Shown piece by piece: positions 2,739 to 21,015 of a stretch of DNA of 64,000 nucleotides. This stretch comes from Gemmatimonadales bacterium. GTDB taxonomy: Bacteria > Gemmatimonadota > Glassbacteria > GWA2-58-10. The notes under the pieces are model-generated. The model did no database searches. It saw only the letters and a list, made by a program, of their open reading frames with translations, and was not told the origin of the DNA. The translations under genes were made by a program, and so were the position numbers. How positions within the stretch are numbered: the stretch's first letter is position 1; every line of letters starts with the position of its first letter. The stretch is taken from NCBI GenBank assembly GCA_024278175.1, contig JAJRTS010000071.1:1-64000 (forward strand). The letters are read 5' to 3'.

Positions 2739-5700
2739 ACCGTTCACCCTACAGCAATTTTTTTTTCAAGCCGGTTCTCGGGGTTATTTTGCTGTCTTTG
2801 TCCCTGGCCGGTGTTCTGCGCGCCGGAGCGTTCGAACTCGTGAGCAGCGGCAACGCTCGGGTTACGGTAGCCTTCAAGCTGCCCCGCTGGAGCCTGGAAC
2901 CGGTGGAGAGCGCGGAGAGTGTTTTTTACCGGCTCCGTGCCCCGGACGGGGAGTACGTCCTGGGCGACGGTTACCCCGATCTGCCGCAGTTCAAGGCCAC
3001 TGTCGCCGTGCCGCCGGGAGCGACAATTACCCCCGGATGGAACGTCCTGGACAGCCGCGTTGTCAACTCCGGTAATATTTTTGCCGTGCAGAGAGTGCAG
3101 AGCGATGAGCGGGAGCGGCCACTGGCCACGCGCTACGCTGACTCGGTTCTTGCCGGGGGTGGGTATTCCCCCGTGCAGGTGGAGGTCAACGGGCCAATGC
3201 GGTTGCGGGACTATGCGGTGGCCGAGATAATCGTCCGTCCGTTTGCCTGGGATATGCGCAACGGTACCTTGCGGGTAACAGAGTCGCTGGAGGTGTCACT
3301 AAGTTTTAGCGGTGGGGAACTCTCCTCATTGACGACTTCCGCCGCCGGTCCCGTGGAAAAAATATTCGAGCCACTGTACCGCAAGCTGCTGCTCAATTAC
3401 GAGCAGGCTTCCCGCTGGCGACACCGACCCGCCGCGAGAGCGAGTCTGCTGGCCGCCGCTGGTCCGTTCGATACCGGCGGCGAGTGGGCCGAGGTGCGGA
3501 TCGACAGCAGCGGCATGTACGCCCTCACCGGTGCGCAACTGAAGCAGGCCGGCATTAATCCGGGGCAGATAGAACCCGCCACGCTCAGGATGTATAGCGG
3601 CGGCAACGCCATGCTGGACCAAAACCGGATCGGGTTTCAACCTGAGTTGCGCGAGGTGGCGATAACCGTCCTCGATGGCGGCGACGGGCGCATTGACGGT
3701 AACGACAGGATTCTGTTCTACGGCCGCGCCACAGACAGGTTCACAGTCTCGAACACCGGCGCTGTATCCTACGAGCGCCACCGCTACGAGAACCACGCGG
3801 CCTACTGGCTTAACTGGTCGGCGGGTGCTGGCGGAGGCCGGCGGATTCCCGCAACCGCCGGTGAAAACTCCGGCGCCGCTGATACCACCGCAGAGCGCTG
3901 GCTGCACTTCGAGGGCAACACCGAGTACCTTGCCCTTGAGCGCTACCCCGGCGGGCCGACACTCAATCCCGCGCCGGACTATTGGGGCTGGGTGCTGGAC
4001 CAGGATCAATCGGGGTTGACCTCACGTTCCTTTGCGCTGAGCGCGGCCCCGGCATCCGGAACTCACAGTCTGCGCTTCCAGATTTACGGGCGGGGCCTGA
4101 CTTTTCCCGAATCCTGGAGTGTAGCGCTCAACGGAAATACGCTGGAAAGTGGTACCAACCGCAATGTGCAGGCCGTTACGAGCAGTTGGATTCAGTTACC
4201 GGCAGGCTCGCTGAGCCAGTCGAATAATGATTTCACGCTCACAGCGCGCGGCCAGTACCTGGGCTGGTACGAATTGCGCGCCGAGCTGCCCCTGGAGCTC
4301 GAGAACGGCTCCCAACTGGAATTTCATAAACGCCTGAAGCTCAGCCCGTCGTTTTCATTCGGTGTGGCCGTGCCGGAGCAACTCGTTCTTTACGAAGTAA
4401 CCGACCCGGAAAACCCCGTTCAGGTCCCAAGGAGCAGCGGCGCCGTGTTTCATGCGCCCTTTTCGGCTAACCTCCTGATCCGGCCCCGTTCGTTCGTGGC
4501 GGTGGCGGGCGAGGGCTACCGAAGCCCTGTTGCCGTGAGGCTCTATCAGCCCGCCGGGCTTAAAACATTCGGAGGAGCGGAGTATCTTGTTATCACTGCA
4601 AAAATACTTGCCGCACAGGCCGCTGAACTGGCCGACATGCGCCGGCAGCGCTTCAGCACCAAAGTTGTAACTGTGGAAGATATCTACGCCGAGTTTTCCC
4701 TGGGCCCCGCGGACCCGTCCGCCGTGCGCAATTTTCTGTCCTACGCGGATAGCAACTGGGCTGTACGGCCCCAGATCGTGGTGTCTTTCGGCGATGGCCA
4801 CGTGGATTTCCGCGGAGTGACTACCCAGGGCCGTAGCAGGCCGAACCTTCTGTTGCCCTGGGTTAACGAGAAGGATATCGCGGTGGAGGAATGGTTCGTC
4901 AGATTCGACACCACCGGCCTGCCGCAGATGGTCACCGGTCGTATTACGGTGAAGAACGCGGCTGAGGCCCGGACGGTACTGGATAAAATCGCGGCCTACG
5001 AGCAGGGGCGCGACGCCGGAGAGTGGAACAATCGGGTGGTGCTGGTGGCCGACGACGGTTACGTGCTGGGCCGGCGCTGCGATCTGGTGGCCAATCACGT
5101 GCCCGGCTCCGAGCTGATCGACTCGATCCTGCCCGCTGCGCTGGTGCGGCGCAAAATCTATCTCGATTCCTACCCGTTCGATCCTCCCGGGATCGGTACG
5201 CGCAAGCCCCAGGCCAACCAGGACCTGCTGGGCTGGTGGAACAGGGGAGCCCTGCTGATCAACTACCTGGGCCACGGCAGCAACATTCACTGGGCGCAGG
5301 AGCGGGTGTTCGACGGGGAGCGGGACGTGACGCTGCTTGGCAACGGCTACCGTCTGCCGCTGGTGCTCAACGCATCCTGCTCTATCGGCCATTTCGACGA
5401 TTACCGTCAGGAGGCCATGGGTGAGCGGGTTTTGCTCAAGAGTGGCGGCGGTGCGATTGCAGTGTTCGCGGCAACGAGGATCTCTTACGCGTTCCAGAAC
5501 CAGGCGCTGAACCGCCGCTTTGTGGAGTACCTTTTTGCAGACGAGAAGTTGCCGCTGGGTCTGATTCACCTGCAAAGCAGGCTTACCCTGGCCGCCGGCG
5601 ACCGCGGCAACGCGGAGCGCTACACGATTCTGGGTGATCCGGCACTGATCTTGCATAGACCGAGCAGGGAGCTGGTTCTCTCTCCCGCCGGGGGACAGCG

Positions 5701-6754
5701 GATCGTTCCGGGGGCGAAAGTGGAATTCAACGGTACGGTTAATTCTCCCGGCGGCGGTGTGGACGGTGGTTTTTCCGGAGTGGCCCGGGTCAAGTTTCTG
5801 CTCACCGGCCAGCCGGTAGATATTGCCTATCAGTGTACCGGAAATAACGGACAGTCCAACAGGAATATTGCCTTTAAGCGCACGCCGTCGGTGCTGTTCG
5901 ACGGGCCGGTGACCGTGGCCGGTGGAGCGTTCAGCGGAGCTTTCGTGCTGCCGGTAAGTCTCACCGGAGAATTGCCGGCCGATACGCTGCGGGGGGCGCA
6001 GGGAGTGTTCGTGGCCTACGCCACCAGCGAGGCCGCCGACGCGGCCGGGGCGGGCGCGAAGATAGCGTTGCCGCTGCTGGGTGTGGCGCTTGACGACACG
6101 CTGGCCCCGTCGATACGCGTACTCAGTGCGGGCCGGGAACTCTCCGACGGGGACCGGATAAGTCAGGACAAACCGCTGACGCTGGTCGTCAGCGACCGGA
6201 GCGGGATCAACACCACGGGCCGTCCCGGTGAACAGCTGACAGTGGAAGTGGACGGGGGAACCACCTGGTCGGCGGATCTGACCGGGCTGTTCAGCTACAA
6301 CAGGGACAGCTACCAGGATGGTACGACCGAGATACTGCTGAACAGGGTGCCCCGAGGAGTGCACAGCTTCCGCTTCCGGGCCGTGGACAACGCGCTCAAC
6401 GTGGCGCGACTGGAGTTGATGCTCAACGTTTCCCAGAGCGCGGGTGCGCTTGCACTGAGCGAGGTTGTCAACTATCCGAACCCGTTCAGCGAGAAAACAT
6501 CGATTTGTTTCGTGCTTAATCAACCTGCTGAAGTGTTGATCAGAATATTTACGGTGGCCGGCCGGCCGGTAAAGCAGTTGAGAACCTTCGCACCGACAGC
6601 GGGGTTTCATTCTGTGGACTGGTACGGCACGGATGAATACAAACAAAAGGTTGCCAACGGGGTATATTTGTATAAAATTACCTGCAAAAGCGCGGTAGAT
6701 AATTCGTCTTCAGAGGAGGTGGGAGCCGTCGGCAAAGCACTACTTAGTCGCTAA
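2735..6754 (+). CDS. porU: PorU-like C25 (gingipain-family) peptidase with type IX sorting domain
   Basis: A large cell-surface protein of about 1339 residues. The signal peptide is followed by beta-rich N-terminal regions, a caspase-like C25 peptidase domain (about 615-975) and a C-terminal FlgD-like/type IX sorting domain (about 1245-1339) with YPNPFSE and NGVYLYKI. The catalytic dyad is present: His847 in NYLGHGS and Cys882 in LNASCSIGHFDD. PorU of the type IX system removes sorting domains from cargo and attaches A-LPS; the same role is inferred here. The first conventional start is TTG at 2789, but that cuts the basic part of the signal peptide. A CTG at 2735 overlaps the previous stop, follows GAGG, and gives a complete signal sequence. 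The PorV-like gene follows. Confidence 0.8.
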   Translation: MNRSPYSNFFFKPVLGVILLSLSLAGVLRAGAFELVSSGNARVTVAFKLPRWSLEPVESAESVFYRLRAPDGEYVLGDGYPDLPQFKATVAVPPGATITPGWNVLDSRVVNSGNIFAVQRVQSDERERPLATRYADSVLAGGGYSPVQVEVNGPMRLRDYAVAEIIVRPFAWDMRNGTLRVTESLEVSLSFSGGELSSLTTSAAGPVEKIFEPLYRKLLLNYEQASRWRHRPAARASLLAAAGPFDTGGEWAEVRIDSSGMYALTGAQLKQAGINPGQIEPATLRMYSGGNAMLDQNRIGFQPELREVAITVLDGGDGRIDGNDRILFYGRATDRFTVSNTGAVSYERHRYENHAAYWLNWSAGAGGGRRIPATAGENSGAADTTAERWLHFEGNTEYLALERYPGGPTLNPAPDYWGWVLDQDQSGLTSRSFALSAAPASGTHSLRFQIYGRGLTFPESWSVALNGNTLESGTNRNVQAVTSSWIQLPAGSLSQSNNDFTLTARGQYLGWYELRAELPLELENGSQLEFHKRLKLSPSFSFGVAVPEQLVLYEVTDPENPVQVPRSSGAVFHAPFSANLLIRPRSFVAVAGEGYRSPVAVRLYQPAGLKTFGGAEYLVITAKILAAQAAELADMRRQRFSTKVVTVEDIYAEFSLGPADPSAVRNFLSYADSNWAVRPQIVVSFGDGHVDFRGVTTQGRSRPNLLLPWVNEKDIAVEEWFVRFDTTGLPQMVTGRITVKNAAEARTVLDKIAAYEQGRDAGEWNNRVVLVADDGYVLGRRCDLVANHVPGSELIDSILPAALVRRKIYLDSYPFDPPGIGTRKPQANQDLLGWWNRGALLINYLGHGSNIHWAQERVFDGERDVTLLGNGYRLPLVLNASCSIGHFDDYRQEAMGERVLLKSGGGAIAVFAATRISYAFQNQALNRRFVEYLFADEKLPLGLIHLQSRLTLAAGDRGNAERYTILGDPALILHRPSRELVLSPAGGQRIVPGAKVEFNGTVNSPGGGVDGGFSGVARVKFLLTGQPVDIAYQCTGNNGQSNRNIAFKRTPSVLFDGPVTVAGGAFSGAFVLPVSLTGELPADTLRGAQGVFVAYATSEAADAAGAGAKIALPLLGVALDDTLAPSIRVLSAGRELSDGDRISQDKPLTLVVSDRSGINTTGRPGEQLTVEVDGGTTWSADLTGLFSYNRDSYQDGTTEILLNRVPRGVHSFRFRAVDNALNVARLELMLNVSQSAGALALSEVVNYPNPFSEKTSICFVLNQPAEVLIRIFTVAGRPVKQLRTFAPTAGFHSVDWYGTDEYKQKVANGVYLYKITCKSAVDNSSSEEVGAVGKALLSR

Positions 6755-6841
6755 ATCACTGTTAATTGGCCGTGTAAATCCTGATAAGTATCATTTGGCT
6801 ATGAATATATGAAATAATCCCCCTGGAAGGAGCAATATCTG

Positions 6842-7837
6842 ATGTTGAGTAAATTCCTGACGTTTGCCGCCGTTTTCGCTGTAATGACCCTGACGGCGCA
6901 GAATTCTTTTGCCCAGGGTGTCAAGAGCGAGTTCAGCGAGAAGAACGGTGCGCGTGCAATAGGAATGGGGCACGCCTACACCGGCGTGGCAGAGGGCCTG
7001 AGCGGTATCCTGTGGAACCCGGCCGGCCTGACGTCGATCAGTGCCCCTTCGTTCTACTTTTCGCGCTATAATGGTTTCTCGTTTACGGTAAGCGATCCCA
7101 CGGGCGGTGAGACAGAGGACCAGATCAGCTTCAACCTGTTCAACTTCGGCATGCCGGTCAAGGACATCGGCACGTTCGCCATCTCGATGAACCTCTGGGA
7201 TTTGGGCTCGAGTGAAATCACCAGCACGGGACAGGACCTGACCGGCCTCGACAATCAGAGTCTGTGGATCATCTACGGCTCGTTCGCAACCAAGTTCAAC
7301 AAGAAAATCGATATCGGCATATCGATGAAGTATATCCGCGAGAAGCTTTCCAGTTCCGATGGTGGTATCGGTTCAAGCGTTGCGGTGGATCTGGGTATGC
7401 TCTACAGGCCGCTCGAGGGAGTGCCGGTCCAGTTCGGCGTTGCTCTGCTGGACCTGGGACCCAACATGCAGTTCAAAAACGAGTACCAGTCCGACCGTCT
7501 CCCGCGCAGGCTCAGGGTGGGAGTTGGCTACAACATCCTCAAGCACCTGCTTGAGCAGGACCGCTTCAACCTGCTGCTCAGCGCCGATTACGAGCGGTTT
7601 CTGGTCGGTAACCCGGCCAACACGGGCTATTTCTTCGGCACCGAGTTTTCGATCGAAGCGGTGAACGATATGTTGCTGAGCCTTCGTTCCGGTTACATGA
7701 GCGAAGAAGGCGATCTTAACGGCGCGCTGATCGGTTTCGGTCTGGACTGGCGCGGTTTCAGTTTTGATATCGCACGTGAGCTGGGTGTCAACCCGCTCAG
7801 TGACCGTACATTCTATTCGCTGTCCGCCAGGTTCTAA
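6842..7837 (+). CDS. porV: PorV/PorQ-family outer-membrane protein
   Basis: A 331-residue protein with signal peptide (cleavage near residue 24-25) and the hallmark segment ARAIGMGHAYTGVAEGLSG followed by WNPAGL. This is typical of the PorV/UPF0164 group of FadL-like 14-stranded barrels. The rest alternates hydrophobic strands and ends in SLSARF, a C-terminal aromatic typical of outer-membrane barrels. In Bacteroidota PorV shuttles type IX cargo to PorU, and porU-porV are often adjacent, as here (87 bases apart). AAGGAG precedes the ATG. A strong terminator follows the gene. The family is also found outside type IX secretion, so the exact role is inferred. Confidence 0.8.
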   Translation: MLSKFLTFAAVFAVMTLTAQNSFAQGVKSEFSEKNGARAIGMGHAYTGVAEGLSGILWNPAGLTSISAPSFYFSRYNGFSFTVSDPTGGETEDQISFNLFNFGMPVKDIGTFAISMNLWDLGSSEITSTGQDLTGLDNQSLWIIYGSFATKFNKKIDIGISMKYIREKLSSSDGGIGSSVAVDLGMLYRPLEGVPVQFGVALLDLGPNMQFKNEYQSDRLPRRLRVGVGYNILKHLLEQDRFNLLLSADYERFLVGNPANTGYFFGTEFSIEAVNDMLLSLRSGYMSEEGDLNGALIGFGLDWRGFSFDIARELGVNPLSDRTFYSLSARF

Positions 7838-17746: not shown

Positions 17747-18103
17747 GGGGGCGATCTGGTTTCGACGGGGGCAATCGGCGAGATCGGGTTGCATGCCGGG
17801 GTCCCGAGCCTCGTTACCAAACGGGAAAATCATAATTGCCAACGATAACTTGGCTCTGGCTGCCTAACTAAGGTAGCCACGTCCGTTGCGAACTCCCTGC
17901 CTGTGGAGACGCTTCGGGCGCCGATAAAGCAGGCTGGTCCCGCGTGGCGCCGGAACGCAAGGGATGAGATCTTCTCCGGCTAACCGGGTGGCGCGTTCTG
18001 TCGGTGGAACTGCCATCTGTCGACGACTAAACATCGACTAAGCATGTAGTGGCCCTGTCTGGCCTGTCTTCGGACGCGGGTTCGATTCCCGCCGCCTCCA
18101 CCA
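17747..18103 (+). ncRNA. ssrA: Transfer-messenger RNA (tmRNA)
   Basis: A 357-base tmRNA of the one-piece type, which rescues stalled ribosomes and tags the nascent chain for proteolysis. The 5' end GGGGGCG pairs with CGCCTCC at the 3' end, followed by an encoded CCA. The 5' segment GGTTTCGACGGGGGC and the 3' T-arm GGGTTCGATTCCCGC are canonical. The tag frame runs from the resume codon GCC at 17838 to TAA at 17865-17867 and encodes ANDNLALAA, a typical hydrophobic degron ending in LAA-type residues. Confidence 0.97.
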
Positions 18104-18230: not shown

Positions 18231-18288
18231 GTAAAAACACACCGGGACCGGGTGTGGGTGGAAGAAAACCCGCCCCGGTCCCGGTGTG
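18231..18288 (-). terminator. Terminator of the mercury operon
   Basis: A perfect 15-bp inverted repeat: CACACCGGGACCGGG (18238-18252) with its complement at 18274-18288. On the minus strand the stem is followed by TTTTTAC, giving a textbook intrinsic terminator for the genes starting at 19786. Confidence 0.85.
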
Positions 18289-18307: not shown

Positions 18308-18577
18308 TCAGCTTAGCGGCTGACCCAGCCCGGCCGAGCGAAGCGTTGTCTCATCGGGACCGCGTCCCGAGCAACAATCGGCCAGCTTCCCGTCGATCGC
18401 CACCGCCGGCACGCGGCGGATTCCCAACTCTTTTGCCCGCTTCGCCACCGCGGTGTCCTGCATGTCCAGCACGCTTACCTCGCACGATGAGCATGCCACA
18501 CTATTGACCAGTTGAACAGTCTCTTCACACGCAGGGCATCCCGCGCTGAAAACCTCGATTTTGCGCCTGGTATTCAT
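18308..18577 (-). CDS. Thioredoxin-fold protein of mercury cassette
   Basis: An 89-residue protein with a thioredoxin/glutaredoxin fold. The redox pair is CPAC (Cys14, Cys17) after the first beta strand, and the cis-proline segment is RVPAVAIDG (about 55-63). Extra cysteines stand out: CSSC (29-32) and a vicinal pair in ADCCSG (68-69). The last gene of the MerR-led operon, it is 22 bases after the MerC-like fusion, with AGGAGG before ATG 18577. The cysteine richness suggests binding or passing of mercury or another thiophilic metal in the cytoplasm. This role is inferred from context. Confidence 0.8.
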   Translation of the reverse strand: MNTRRKIEVFSAGCPACEETVQLVNSVACSSCEVSVLDMQDTAVAKRAKELGIRRVPAVAIDGKLADCCSGRGPDETTLRSAGLGQPLS

Positions 18578-18599
18578 GGTAATGCCTCCTTGCTTTCGT

Positions 18600-19382
18600 T
18601 TACACGCCCCCGCTTGCATCGATTACGACCTCTGCCGCTGCGGGAGCGCAAGCTGGACAGGCGTCTCTGCCGGTACCGGCATTCTTTCTCGGCCATGCAT
18701 TCCAGAGAGACGCGACGATTAACATCGCTATTCCCGTGTACATGGCTGTATCGGATTCCAGGCTGAACTTGCCGGCGAGCACGATAGCGGACGCCGCCAG
18801 TCCCAGCACAAACGGTCTGTATCCTCTGCGGGTTCCCGCCTTATAGGCCAGCGCCGCCACTGCTATTGCAAGAAAAAGGGTTGTCAGGGGCAGGAGATAT
18901 GCCGTCTCAAACAAGAAACCAAAACCTAAAGAACTCAGCAGGCCTGCGTAGGCGGGCCAGCAGGCCGGGCATACGCCGACCGGCAACAGAGAAGCTCCGA
19001 TTCCGGGTAAAACCGCTAGGGGGCTTCGCCACCCGGTTGCCTTGCTCTCAGCGCCCTTTGGCGCCGGGCTGTCAGCAGCCTTTTTCAGGGCCGCTGCGAT
19101 TGTCTCCACCGACGGTGCTCCAGCGAAACCGCCATTGGCGGCAGCGTAGAGCCTGCAACTGGAGATGCTCTCCGAGGGGTCGATACCCGCGACATCCGTC
19201 CCGTCAACCAGGACGGTTGGAGAACCGTAAGCCCGGATGTGGGATGGACCGGCGGGGTCTCCTCTTTCCCATTCCACCCAGCGGGCGGGAACTCCTGTTT
19301 CAGCAAATGCCCGCAGCAGCCGGGTGCGGGCCAGTTTCACATTCGGGCAGTCGTGGTCGTATATCAATTCAACTGTTTTCAT
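18600..19382 (-). CDS. Thioredoxin-like domain fused to MerC-like membrane transporter
   Basis: A 260-residue two-domain protein. Residues 1-100 resemble a thioredoxin-fold domain seen in mercury loci, with DCPNV (Cys12) and cis-proline GSPTVLVDG (53-61). Residues 120-230 form about four membrane helices of the MerC type, with the paired cysteines VCPACWPAYAG (Cys138, Cys141) in the first helix. A further CPAC (242-245) lies in the cytoplasmic tail. MerC proteins import Hg(II). The fusion could hand metal from the pore cysteines to the attached fold. Its ATG overlaps the merR stop by four bases (ATGA), so translation is coupled. GGAG lies upstream. Confidence 0.8.
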   Translation of the reverse strand: MKTVELIYDHDCPNVKLARTRLLRAFAETGVPARWVEWERGDPAGPSHIRAYGSPTVLVDGTDVAGIDPSESISSCRLYAAANGGFAGAPSVETIAAALKKAADSPAPKGAESKATGWRSPLAVLPGIGASLLPVGVCPACWPAYAGLLSSLGFGFLFETAYLLPLTTLFLAIAVAALAYKAGTRRGYRPFVLGLAASAIVLAGKFSLESDTAMYTGIAMLIVASLWNAWPRKNAGTGRDACPACAPAAAEVVIDASGGV

Positions 19383-19786
19383 CGTTCGTCGCTCTCCATC
19401 GCTTCAAGGACCGGGCACTCACTTACCGGACCGCGTCCGCGGCAGGCCAGGGTCAACTTCATGAGTGCCTCTTTCATGCTTTTCAGCGTCCGGATTTTCT
19501 GCTCGATGTCGCTGATTTTCGCTTCCGCCCGCCCGCGAATGTCCTCACAGGTCGTTGCCGGTTCGATCCGCAGGGCAAGGAGTTCTTTTATCTCTTTCAG
19601 GGTGAACCCGAGCTCCTTGGCGCGCCTGATTGAGCGCAGCCGGTGGACGGTATCTTCGGGATACTGCCGGTACCCAGACTCCCTGCGCGGCGGCTCATCG
19701 ATCAGTCCCTTCCGCTCGTAGAATCGGATCGTTTCCACCCCGACCTCAGCGAGCCGGGCAACTTTTCCGATTGTCAGTGATTCCAT
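19379..19786 (-). CDS. merR: Mercury-responsive MerR-type regulator
   Basis: A 135-residue MerR-family regulator with an N-terminal winged helix (LTIGKVARLAEVGVETIRFYERKGLI) and a dimerisation helix. The three cysteines that bind Hg(II) in MerR of Tn501 (82, 117, 126) are matched here by Cys80, Cys115 and Cys124 with identical spacing of 35 and 9. That spacing is the strongest evidence for mercury rather than another metal. ATG 19786 has AGGAG seven bases upstream; the GTG just before it is less likely. The gene leads the operon and is preceded by a typical MerR operator, so it is autoregulated. Confidence 0.9.
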   Translation of the reverse strand: MESLTIGKVARLAEVGVETIRFYERKGLIDEPPRRESGYRQYPEDTVHRLRSIRRAKELGFTLKEIKELLALRIEPATTCEDIRGRAEAKISDIEQKIRTLKSMKEALMKLTLACRGRGPVSECPVLEAMESDER

Positions 19787-19811
19787 CACGGTCTCCTTTC
19801 ATTCTGATTTT

Positions 19812-19843
19812 ATTATAAAGCCTGTACTATACTACAGAGTCAA
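19812..19843 (-). promoter_or_regulatory. MerR-type promoter-operator
   Basis: On the minus strand TTGACT (19838-19843) and a perfect TATAAT (19812-19817) are 20 bases apart, the overlong spacing that MerR regulators untwist. The spacer holds the dyad CTGTACTATACTACAG (19822-19837). This is the expected architecture for metal-inducible control of merR and the two genes after it. Confidence 0.85.
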
Positions 19844-20016: not shown

Positions 20017-21015
20017 ATGAGCGAGGTGGAATCACACTGGGGCCAGGCCAGCAGGGCGCTGCGCGAGGAACTGCGCGCCACGCTTGATCAGGACCAGATC
20101 AAGCGGCTGCACCGCAAGCGACCTTGGCTGCATTTTGTCGTGGCTGCCCGGCAGTTCGCCTTTCTGGGCCTGTCCAGCTGGCTGCTGATCGAGTTCGTCA
20201 ATCCGCTGGTGGTCATCCCGGCCGCGCTGCTCTCCGGGTTCACTGTGTTTAATTTCACCGTGCTGCTGCATGAGCAGTTACACAACCTGGTGTTTACCGG
20301 ACATCATCCCAGGCTGAGCGCGGCTCTCGGTCGGCTCTATGCTTTTTGGGGCGGAATCAGCGCCAGTCAGTTCACGCGCTGGCACCTGGACCATCACCTC
20401 CAACTGGGCTCGGACACCGGAGACCCCAAGCGGCATCACCTCTCGCCCAGGGGCAACAGCCGCTGGCTTAAACTGGCTTACTTTACGCCCGCACTGTTTT
20501 TCCTCTATTTCCGCGCCGCGTCCAGAGAAACCGCCACCTACGATTCGGTTCTCCGGACAAGAATCGCCCGTGAGCGGGTACTGTCAATCGGCGGGCACGT
20601 TGTGTTGCAGGCGATATTGTTCATGGTGGCGGGAGCGAGTGCCTGGCTGAGGGCCTACGCGCTGCCTGTGTTTTTCGTCTTTCCCTTGGCATTCGCGATA
20701 AACAGGGTCGGCCAGCACTATAATATCAAAGAGAGTGATCCGGCGGGCTGGACCACCTGGGTGCGTGGTCACTGGTTCTGGGATTTCCTGTTCCTGAACT
20801 CCGATTACCATCTGGAGCACCATTACTATCCCGGTGTCCCGTTCTACAACCTCCCCGGCTTGCAGAGCATACTGGCCCCTGTGTACCGCGCGCATAAACT
20901 GAAGCCGCACTCGTATCCTGAGCTGCTCTACGGATACCTTGTGGACAACAACGTCCCGCACCGGGACTGGGATTTTGCCGCTGCCCGGCTGAGCGGCTTG
21001 CCATCCGGCGGCTAA
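20017..21015 (+). CDS. Fatty acid desaturase
   Basis: A 332-residue membrane di-iron enzyme of the FA_desaturase superfamily. Three histidine boxes are present: HEQLH (85-89), HLDHH (123-127) and HLEHHYYPGVP (265 onward). A further His in VGQHYNI (about 234) may complete the metal site. Hydrophobic segments fit two helical hairpins. The family introduces double bonds or hydroxyl groups into acyl lipids or carotenoids; the substrate is not evident. GGGGTAGAG precedes the ATG. An AT-rich region with TATAAT-like sequences lies just upstream. The enzyme needs oxygen, so it points to at least occasional aerobic life. Confidence 0.85.
   Translation: MSEVESHWGQASRALREELRATLDQDQIKRLHRKRPWLHFVVAARQFAFLGLSSWLLIEFVNPLVVIPAALLSGFTVFNFTVLLHEQLHNLVFTGHHPRLSAALGRLYAFWGGISASQFTRWHLDHHLQLGSDTGDPKRHHLSPRGNSRWLKLAYFTPALFFLYFRAASRETATYDSVLRTRIARERVLSIGGHVVLQAILFMVAGASAWLRAYALPVFFVFPLAFAINRVGQHYNIKESDPAGWTTWVRGHWFWDFLFLNSDYHLEHHYYPGVPFYNLPGLQSILAPVYRAHKLKPHSYPELLYGYLVDNNVPHRDWDFAAARLSGLPSGG

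Follow-up and report, generated by a model that had tools for sequence, protein, structure and literature searches.

The question raised by this locus is how a bacterium handles Hg(II) when a mer-type regulator and a mer-type carrier are encoded without a mercuric reductase (MerA) beside them. On the minus strand of the window (the whole 64-kb stretch of DNA analysed here), a single mer-type promoter precedes a three-gene operon consisting of merR, a gene for a thioredoxin-MerC fusion protein (fusion) and a gene for a small thioredoxin-like protein (trx), and no match to MerA was found within these 64 kb. A first-pass annotation had read this cassette as uptake and thiol relay without a reductase, and as an alternative way to handle the metal.

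Organization of the operon and its regulator

The features of the operon and of its flanks are as follows.

19812-19843, minus strand: mer-type promoter/operator, read from the sequence
19379-19786, minus strand: merR, with ATG start and AAGGAG upstream
18600-19382, minus strand: fusion, 260 residues, sharing 4 bp with merR
18308-18577, minus strand: trx, 89 residues, thioredoxin-like
18238-18288, minus strand: hairpin and T-run, likely operon terminator, between trx and the tmRNA gene
17747-18103, plus strand: tmRNA gene, on one flank of the operon
20017-21015, plus strand: fatty-acid-desaturase-like gene, on the other flank, named by eye from histidine motifs

The promoter features a -35 element TTGACT (19838-19843) and a -10 element TATAAT (19812-19817) separated by 20 bp, with the dyad CTGTA-N6-TACAG inside this spacer, and fits a mer operator (19-20 bp spacer and dyad). 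The same operator, with consensus TTGACYCYRWASTNNNNTWCRG and a predominant 20-bp spacer, lies upstream of about 65 of 74 merR homologues, so the promoter and dyad described in the first-pass annotation are not a chance occurrence. Moreover, the operator pattern gave 26 exact sites in 40 genomes carrying the cassette and none with a reversed control, and the sites examined in such genomes all stood at mer genes, i.e. the cassette, a second cassette copy, merTP-merA or merR-merP. Clear ribosome sites are apparent ahead of merR and trx. The hairpin downstream of trx, with perfect arms of 15 bp (18238-18252 and 18274-18288; RNA fold of -43.7 kcal/mol), is the likely transcription terminator of the operon. 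Integration linked to the tmRNA gene, as in a mobile island, was considered and dropped, since the tmRNA 3' end is present only once in the window and the 9-kb stretch around the cassette of a congener (G003) holds no tmRNA or tRNA gene.

In MerR, the metal cysteines Cys81, Cys116 and Cys125 (136-residue listing) display the spacing C-x34-C-x8-C, in agreement with the earlier claim of three Hg cysteines at exact spacing, and are 97-100% conserved among homologues. A similar spacing occurs in some Pb/Cd regulators. Among the profiles for metal-responsive MerR proteins, that for mercury (TIGR02051) scores highest, with 137.5 bits and thus under its equivalog cut-off of 150.85, and the ZntR, CueR and CadR-PbrR models score too; the more general PF13411 gives 73 bits. 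Of three PF00376 matches in the genome, only the MerR of the window carries the metal cysteines.

The fusion protein and the six-cysteine mini-thioredoxin

The claim that a thioredoxin-like domain is fused to MerC-like helices is borne out by profile searches and structure prediction alike. The N-terminal domain (residues ~1-105, with C12 and C76) has a DF-like thioredoxin fold and aligns with positions 1-96 of NF049942, a 'DF family (seleno)protein' model, at 44.8 bits (9.1e-12; cut-off of 70 not reached). The C-terminal MerC domain (residues ~119-245, with C138/C141 and C242/C245) matches PF03203 at 40.6 bits, above the gathering score of 27.6, and stays under the equivalog cut-offs of NF033784 and NF010318 (39 vs 140 and 43 vs 170 bits, respectively). 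None of the Pfam or NCBIfam models spans the entire fusion. Its AF2 model (mean pLDDT 83) features a confident alpha/beta N-terminal domain, with blocks mostly above 90, and a helical bundle at residues 119-229; thioredoxins were the best structural matches found by Foldseek, as weak matches only.

All six cysteines of the fusion are 85-100% conserved among about 70 homologues; in a 64-member alignment C12, C76, C138 and C141 are invariant, and C242 and C245 are retained in 85% and 96% of members, respectively. The CPAC motifs noted earlier in the membrane part and in the tail are indeed present (138-141 and 242-245), yet they occupy the usual cysteine positions of MerC and are not an added feature. 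Cysteine stands at the DF active site in all members aligned, with no selenocysteine; in-frame TGA codons in relatives from the same phylum, which might have indicated a selenoprotein form of the DF domain, proved to be the normal termination codons of DF genes that stand alone.

The product of trx matches Thioredoxin_3 (PF13192) at 40.2 bits, above the gathering score of 24.8, and adopts a thioredoxin fold according to AF2 and Foldseek. Its six cysteines are arranged as CPAC (C13-P-A-C16 in 88-residue numbering), CSSC (C-x2-C) and CC, the three motifs listed in the first-pass annotation, and each is at least 90% conserved in a 59-member alignment; over the wider set of homologues their conservation is 94-100%.

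A merA split by an insertion sequence elsewhere in the genome

The absence of MerA holds for the 64-kb window and does not extend to the genome. One MerA above the curated cut-off (470.9 vs 454.45 bits, model positions 2-414) is encoded on another contig (C53:6214-7449), behind a merT-P fusion gene; beyond merA, the rest of the contig is DNA of an insertion sequence. The complementary situation is evident on contig C32, which read in reverse begins with insertion-sequence DNA and continues with a C-terminal piece of MerA (model positions 405-464, tail SCCAV), located at the end of that contig, and then merB. The insertion-sequence ends on the two contigs are inverted repeats around a common target sequence, and two further copies of the C53 end occur in the genome. 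Thus, in the assembly an IS3-like element interrupts the merA of this genome, which makes MerA function doubtful here. Two other proteins with high scores against the MerA model (on C101 and C74) have no CC tail at the C-terminus and resemble FAD oxidoreductases of a general kind.

Upstream of merT-P on C53 lies TTGACTCTATACTTAGGTACAG-N4-TATAAT, with the same 20-bp spacer, and then about 22 residues left over from a merR. A merA behind the same operator is the very case that the first-pass annotation had named as refuting its reading. Genome-wide, the operator pattern occurs at the window site, at this site before merTP-merA and once on C7, the last being a chance match within a long open frame, whose product we take for a glycerophosphodiester phosphodiesterase. 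Given the common operator, the remnant state of the C53 merR and the sole metal-cysteine MerR being that of the window, the natural reading is that this MerR probably controls the merTP-merA-merB operon in trans. The C53 mer locus (5302-7588) adjoins a CusCBA/CzcA-like efflux operon. The G+C content of the C53/C32 mer locus is 0.51, compared to 0.57 for the window.

Distribution of the cassette

A scan of genome contigs yielded 118 relatives of the fusion, of which 80 were examined together with one congener locus (81 loci in total). The order merR-fusion-trx, with all genes co-directional, is found in 64 of these loci; trx is present in 70, and 72 have a MerR that bears the cysteine triad or a variant close to it. 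The cassette occurs in at least 13 phyla: Pseudomonadota, Planctomycetota, Myxococcota, Acidobacteriota, Verrucomicrobiota, Gemmatimonadota, Nitrospinota, Armatimonadota, Cyanobacteriota/Melainabacteria, Hydrogenedentota, Krumholzibacteriota, Eiseniibacteriota and Thermodesulfobacteriota. It is a real and widespread variant of mer systems. The tree of the relatives follows host phyla in part only (25 label changes, with a minimum of 11 and a shuffled mean of 34.5), a pattern that would be compatible with repeated transfer and is no proof of it.

A merA-like ORF is located near only 2 of the 81 relatives. A scan for recurring neighbours returned mostly antisense ORFs of the cassette itself; RND pump genes alone stood out, within about 6 kb at 14 of 81 loci (raw count). 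One genome (G307) has a second, shorter cassette behind the same operator (L162), in which merR is followed by a MerC apparently devoid of the thioredoxin-like domain and by trx.

Mercuric reductase in genomes carrying the cassette

MerA above cut-off was found in 13 of 50 cassette genomes and not in the other 37, with a gap in scores from 484 to 413 bits; MerB was found in 6 of the 50. The carriers with MerA include the cultured species Sinimarinibacterium flocculans and Tautonia sociabilis. The corresponding background in the phylum is 25 of 296 genomes, so that MerA is about 3-fold enriched among carriers (Fisher p = 0.0009), in a comparison of two genome sets that are unlike in taxonomy. 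The 50 genomes are mostly MAGs, some of which may lack MerA through incompleteness, but this cannot easily explain all 37 absences. Indeed, no MerA above cut-off was detected in the congener G003, which is 99% complete and has the cassette, and G301, which carries the cassette on one chromosome record of 2.5 Mb, has only a paralogue scoring 327 bits. Enriched with the cassette and yet absent from about three quarters of carriers, MerA marks the cassette as associated with mercury systems and not dependent on MerA. The location of the operator at mer genes and the company of such genes likewise tie the system to mercury by regulation and association.

These data bear on whether the cassette belongs to an ordinary split mer system, i.e. 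an accessory uptake module feeding MerA and MerB encoded elsewhere, with no reductase-independent role of its own. The merTP-merA-merB genes behind the same operator in the genome of the window agree with this explanation, as do the operator sites near merA in three other genomes (G326, G344 and G342) and the enrichment of MerA in carriers. It nevertheless appears rather unlikely in view of the 37 carriers and the congener without MerA above cut-off, of G301 with its paralogue only, and of the split state of merA in the genome of the window itself. Uptake and thiol relay without a reductase, as first proposed, therefore does not describe this genome, where merA stands behind the same operator, and stands as an idea for those others in which MerA was not detected.

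Parts of the cassette in other settings

The components of the cassette recur in other combinations. In four loci of the same phylum (L038-L041), each half of the fusion has a gene of its own, the two standing side by side behind merR, and in four others (L042, L043, L055 and L056) DF and/or trx genes are part of merR operons with MerT, MerP and MerB, MerA not being beside them. In Geobacter argillaceus (L129), merR-merC-trx is followed by merT-like, merB and merA genes. A mini-thioredoxin gene adjoins merR-merT-merP and a gene for a GDCCVxC protein on a plasmid of Burkholderia contaminans, and merR-merF on a plasmid of Stanieria. The latter (L148, NC_019750.1, 3998-6040) features trx-merR-merF-CopZ without merA, and then a class I SAM-dependent methyltransferase gene.

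Two further arrangements were noted. In Tautonia sociabilis (G342; L173 and L176), merR-operator sites precede a gene for an HMA (MerP-like) protein and a gene for a membrane protein resembling CcdA/DsbD, a set that is possibly another merA-free mercury module. In mer operons of two genomes of the same phylum as the window, two MerP-like HMA proteins (L054, 5328-5496, and L052, 2952-3363, both on the minus strand) carry a TGA in frame at the position of the first metal-binding cysteine (GMT-U-DGC and GMT-U-TSC, respectively), and are probable candidates for a selenocysteine MerP, judging from their reading frames.

Other relatives are found outside mer operons: arsenic genes are the neighbours of standalone DF genes on plasmids of Rhodococcus and Mycobacterium, and a trx relative in Hymenobacter adjoins metal ATPase and multicopper oxidase genes. 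These neighbourhoods, together with a MerR that scores under the mercury equivalog cut-off and also with the ZntR, CueR and CadR-PbrR models, could point to another thiophilic metal or metalloid (Cu, Cd, Pb or As) as the substrate instead of Hg. This is highly improbable, considering that the mercury model is the best for this MerR, that the cysteine spacing is of the Hg type, that the partner is a MerC, and that the operator is common to merTP-merA and stands at mer genes in other genomes.

A proposed route for Hg(II)

The most satisfactory account of the cassette, which we regard as probable, is that of a self-contained, MerR-controlled Hg(II) response operon with MerC-type uptake and a thiol relay to the mini-thioredoxin; within it, we infer the specificity for Hg, the direction of transport, the order of hand-off and the identity of the sink. 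Binding of Hg(II) to the three cysteines of MerR would activate merR-fusion-trx from the 20-bp-spacer promoter. The fusion would act as an Hg carrier of MerC type in the inner membrane, to which a cytosolic acceptor domain with a thioredoxin fold (C12/C76) has been added, and Hg(II) may pass from the membrane CPAC pair to this domain and the tail CPAC, and from there to the mini-thioredoxin. The latter would serve as an intracellular Hg chaperone or buffer, its CC pair receiving Hg(II). MerA, too, has a vicinal CC at its end, which accepts Hg. In the genome of the window, MerA with MerB, encoded by the second operon with the same operator, would have been the natural terminal acceptor before merA was split. 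With no MerA detectable in most other carriers, the relay must end in another sink, for which thiols (of proteins or of low molecular weight), a different reductase and efflux are candidates.

Uptake of Hg with no reduction is known to make cells hypersensitive. An importer without a reductase should sensitise the cell to Hg, and the benefit of the cassette in merA-less genomes is the main difficulty of the model. This benefit would be explained by export from the cytosol or by protection of membrane and cytosolic thiols, in which the mini-thioredoxin and the DF domain strip Hg from proteins and the MerC part carries it back to the periplasm, with a possible hand-over to RND pumps such as those near 14 of the 81 loci or the CusCBA/CzcA-like operon adjoining the C53 mer locus. 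We consider it distinctly unlikely that the cassette works in this direction, because a pump is lacking in the vicinity of most loci, general types are found among the RND relatives (as in G003), and MerC is known for uptake: according to work cited in PMC5715351, it is an inner-membrane Hg(II) uptake protein, known from Tn21. Returning to uptake and relay, that the cassette provides an alternative way to handle the metal, in general terms, is plausible. Its more specific form, a widespread and horizontally scattered Hg detoxification without mercuric reductase, in which the fusion imports Hg(II) and the mini-thioredoxin holds it or passes it on, is put forward tentatively, as a possibility short of probable.

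According to Christakis et al. (2021, PMC8261052), many genomes encode MerB without MerA, and cells must have evolved other means for dealing with Hg(II). A mer-regulated, MerA-independent uptake and relay cassette in at least 13 phyla represents a concrete candidate for such handling; if true, it answers how Hg(II) is dealt with in cells that have genes for mer uptake or for MerB and no MerA. It also suggests that a large part of the microbial mercury response goes unnoticed when surveys count merA (and merB) alone.

Relation to known systems

Every module of the cassette belongs to a known superfamily, and it is the fusion and the three-gene combination that are apparently undescribed. Neither was found in open-licence literature on MerC-thioredoxin fusions, GDCCVxC proteins and selenoproteins with mer genes, an absence that is no proof of novelty. 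Canonical mer operons (merRTPCADE of Tn21/Tn501; Gram-positive operons, with merR first) share with the cassette a MerR with three metal cysteines, a MerC-type carrier, and -35 and -10 elements with a 19-20 bp spacer and dyad. The cassette differs in the absence of merA, merT and merP, in its co-directional layout with merR first, in the fusion of the carrier to a thioredoxin-like domain, and in the additional six-cysteine mini-thioredoxin.

The fusion resembles MerC (PF03203; NF033784, NF010318) in its helical membrane part, the cysteine pair near TM1 and the pair in the C-terminal tail, and is set apart by scores under the equivalog cut-offs, an invariant CPACWPAY motif and the N-terminal thioredoxin-fold extension. 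That extension aligns over the full 96 positions of the DF model NF049942, but below its cut-off, in the cysteine form with no in-frame stop at the active site, and fused to MerC. The trx product shares the fold and the N-terminal CxxC with Thioredoxin_3 and MTH895/ArsE-type mini-thioredoxins (PF13192, TIGR00412), and differs in scoring under the TIGR00412 cut-off (31 vs 62), in two more conserved cysteine pairs (C-x2-C and CC) and in its mer-type gene neighbourhood. As for the genomes with merB and without merA, the cassette is not described in the portion of PMC8261052 drawn upon here and MerB accompanies it in only 6 of 50 carriers; what the two have in common is the handling of Hg without MerA.
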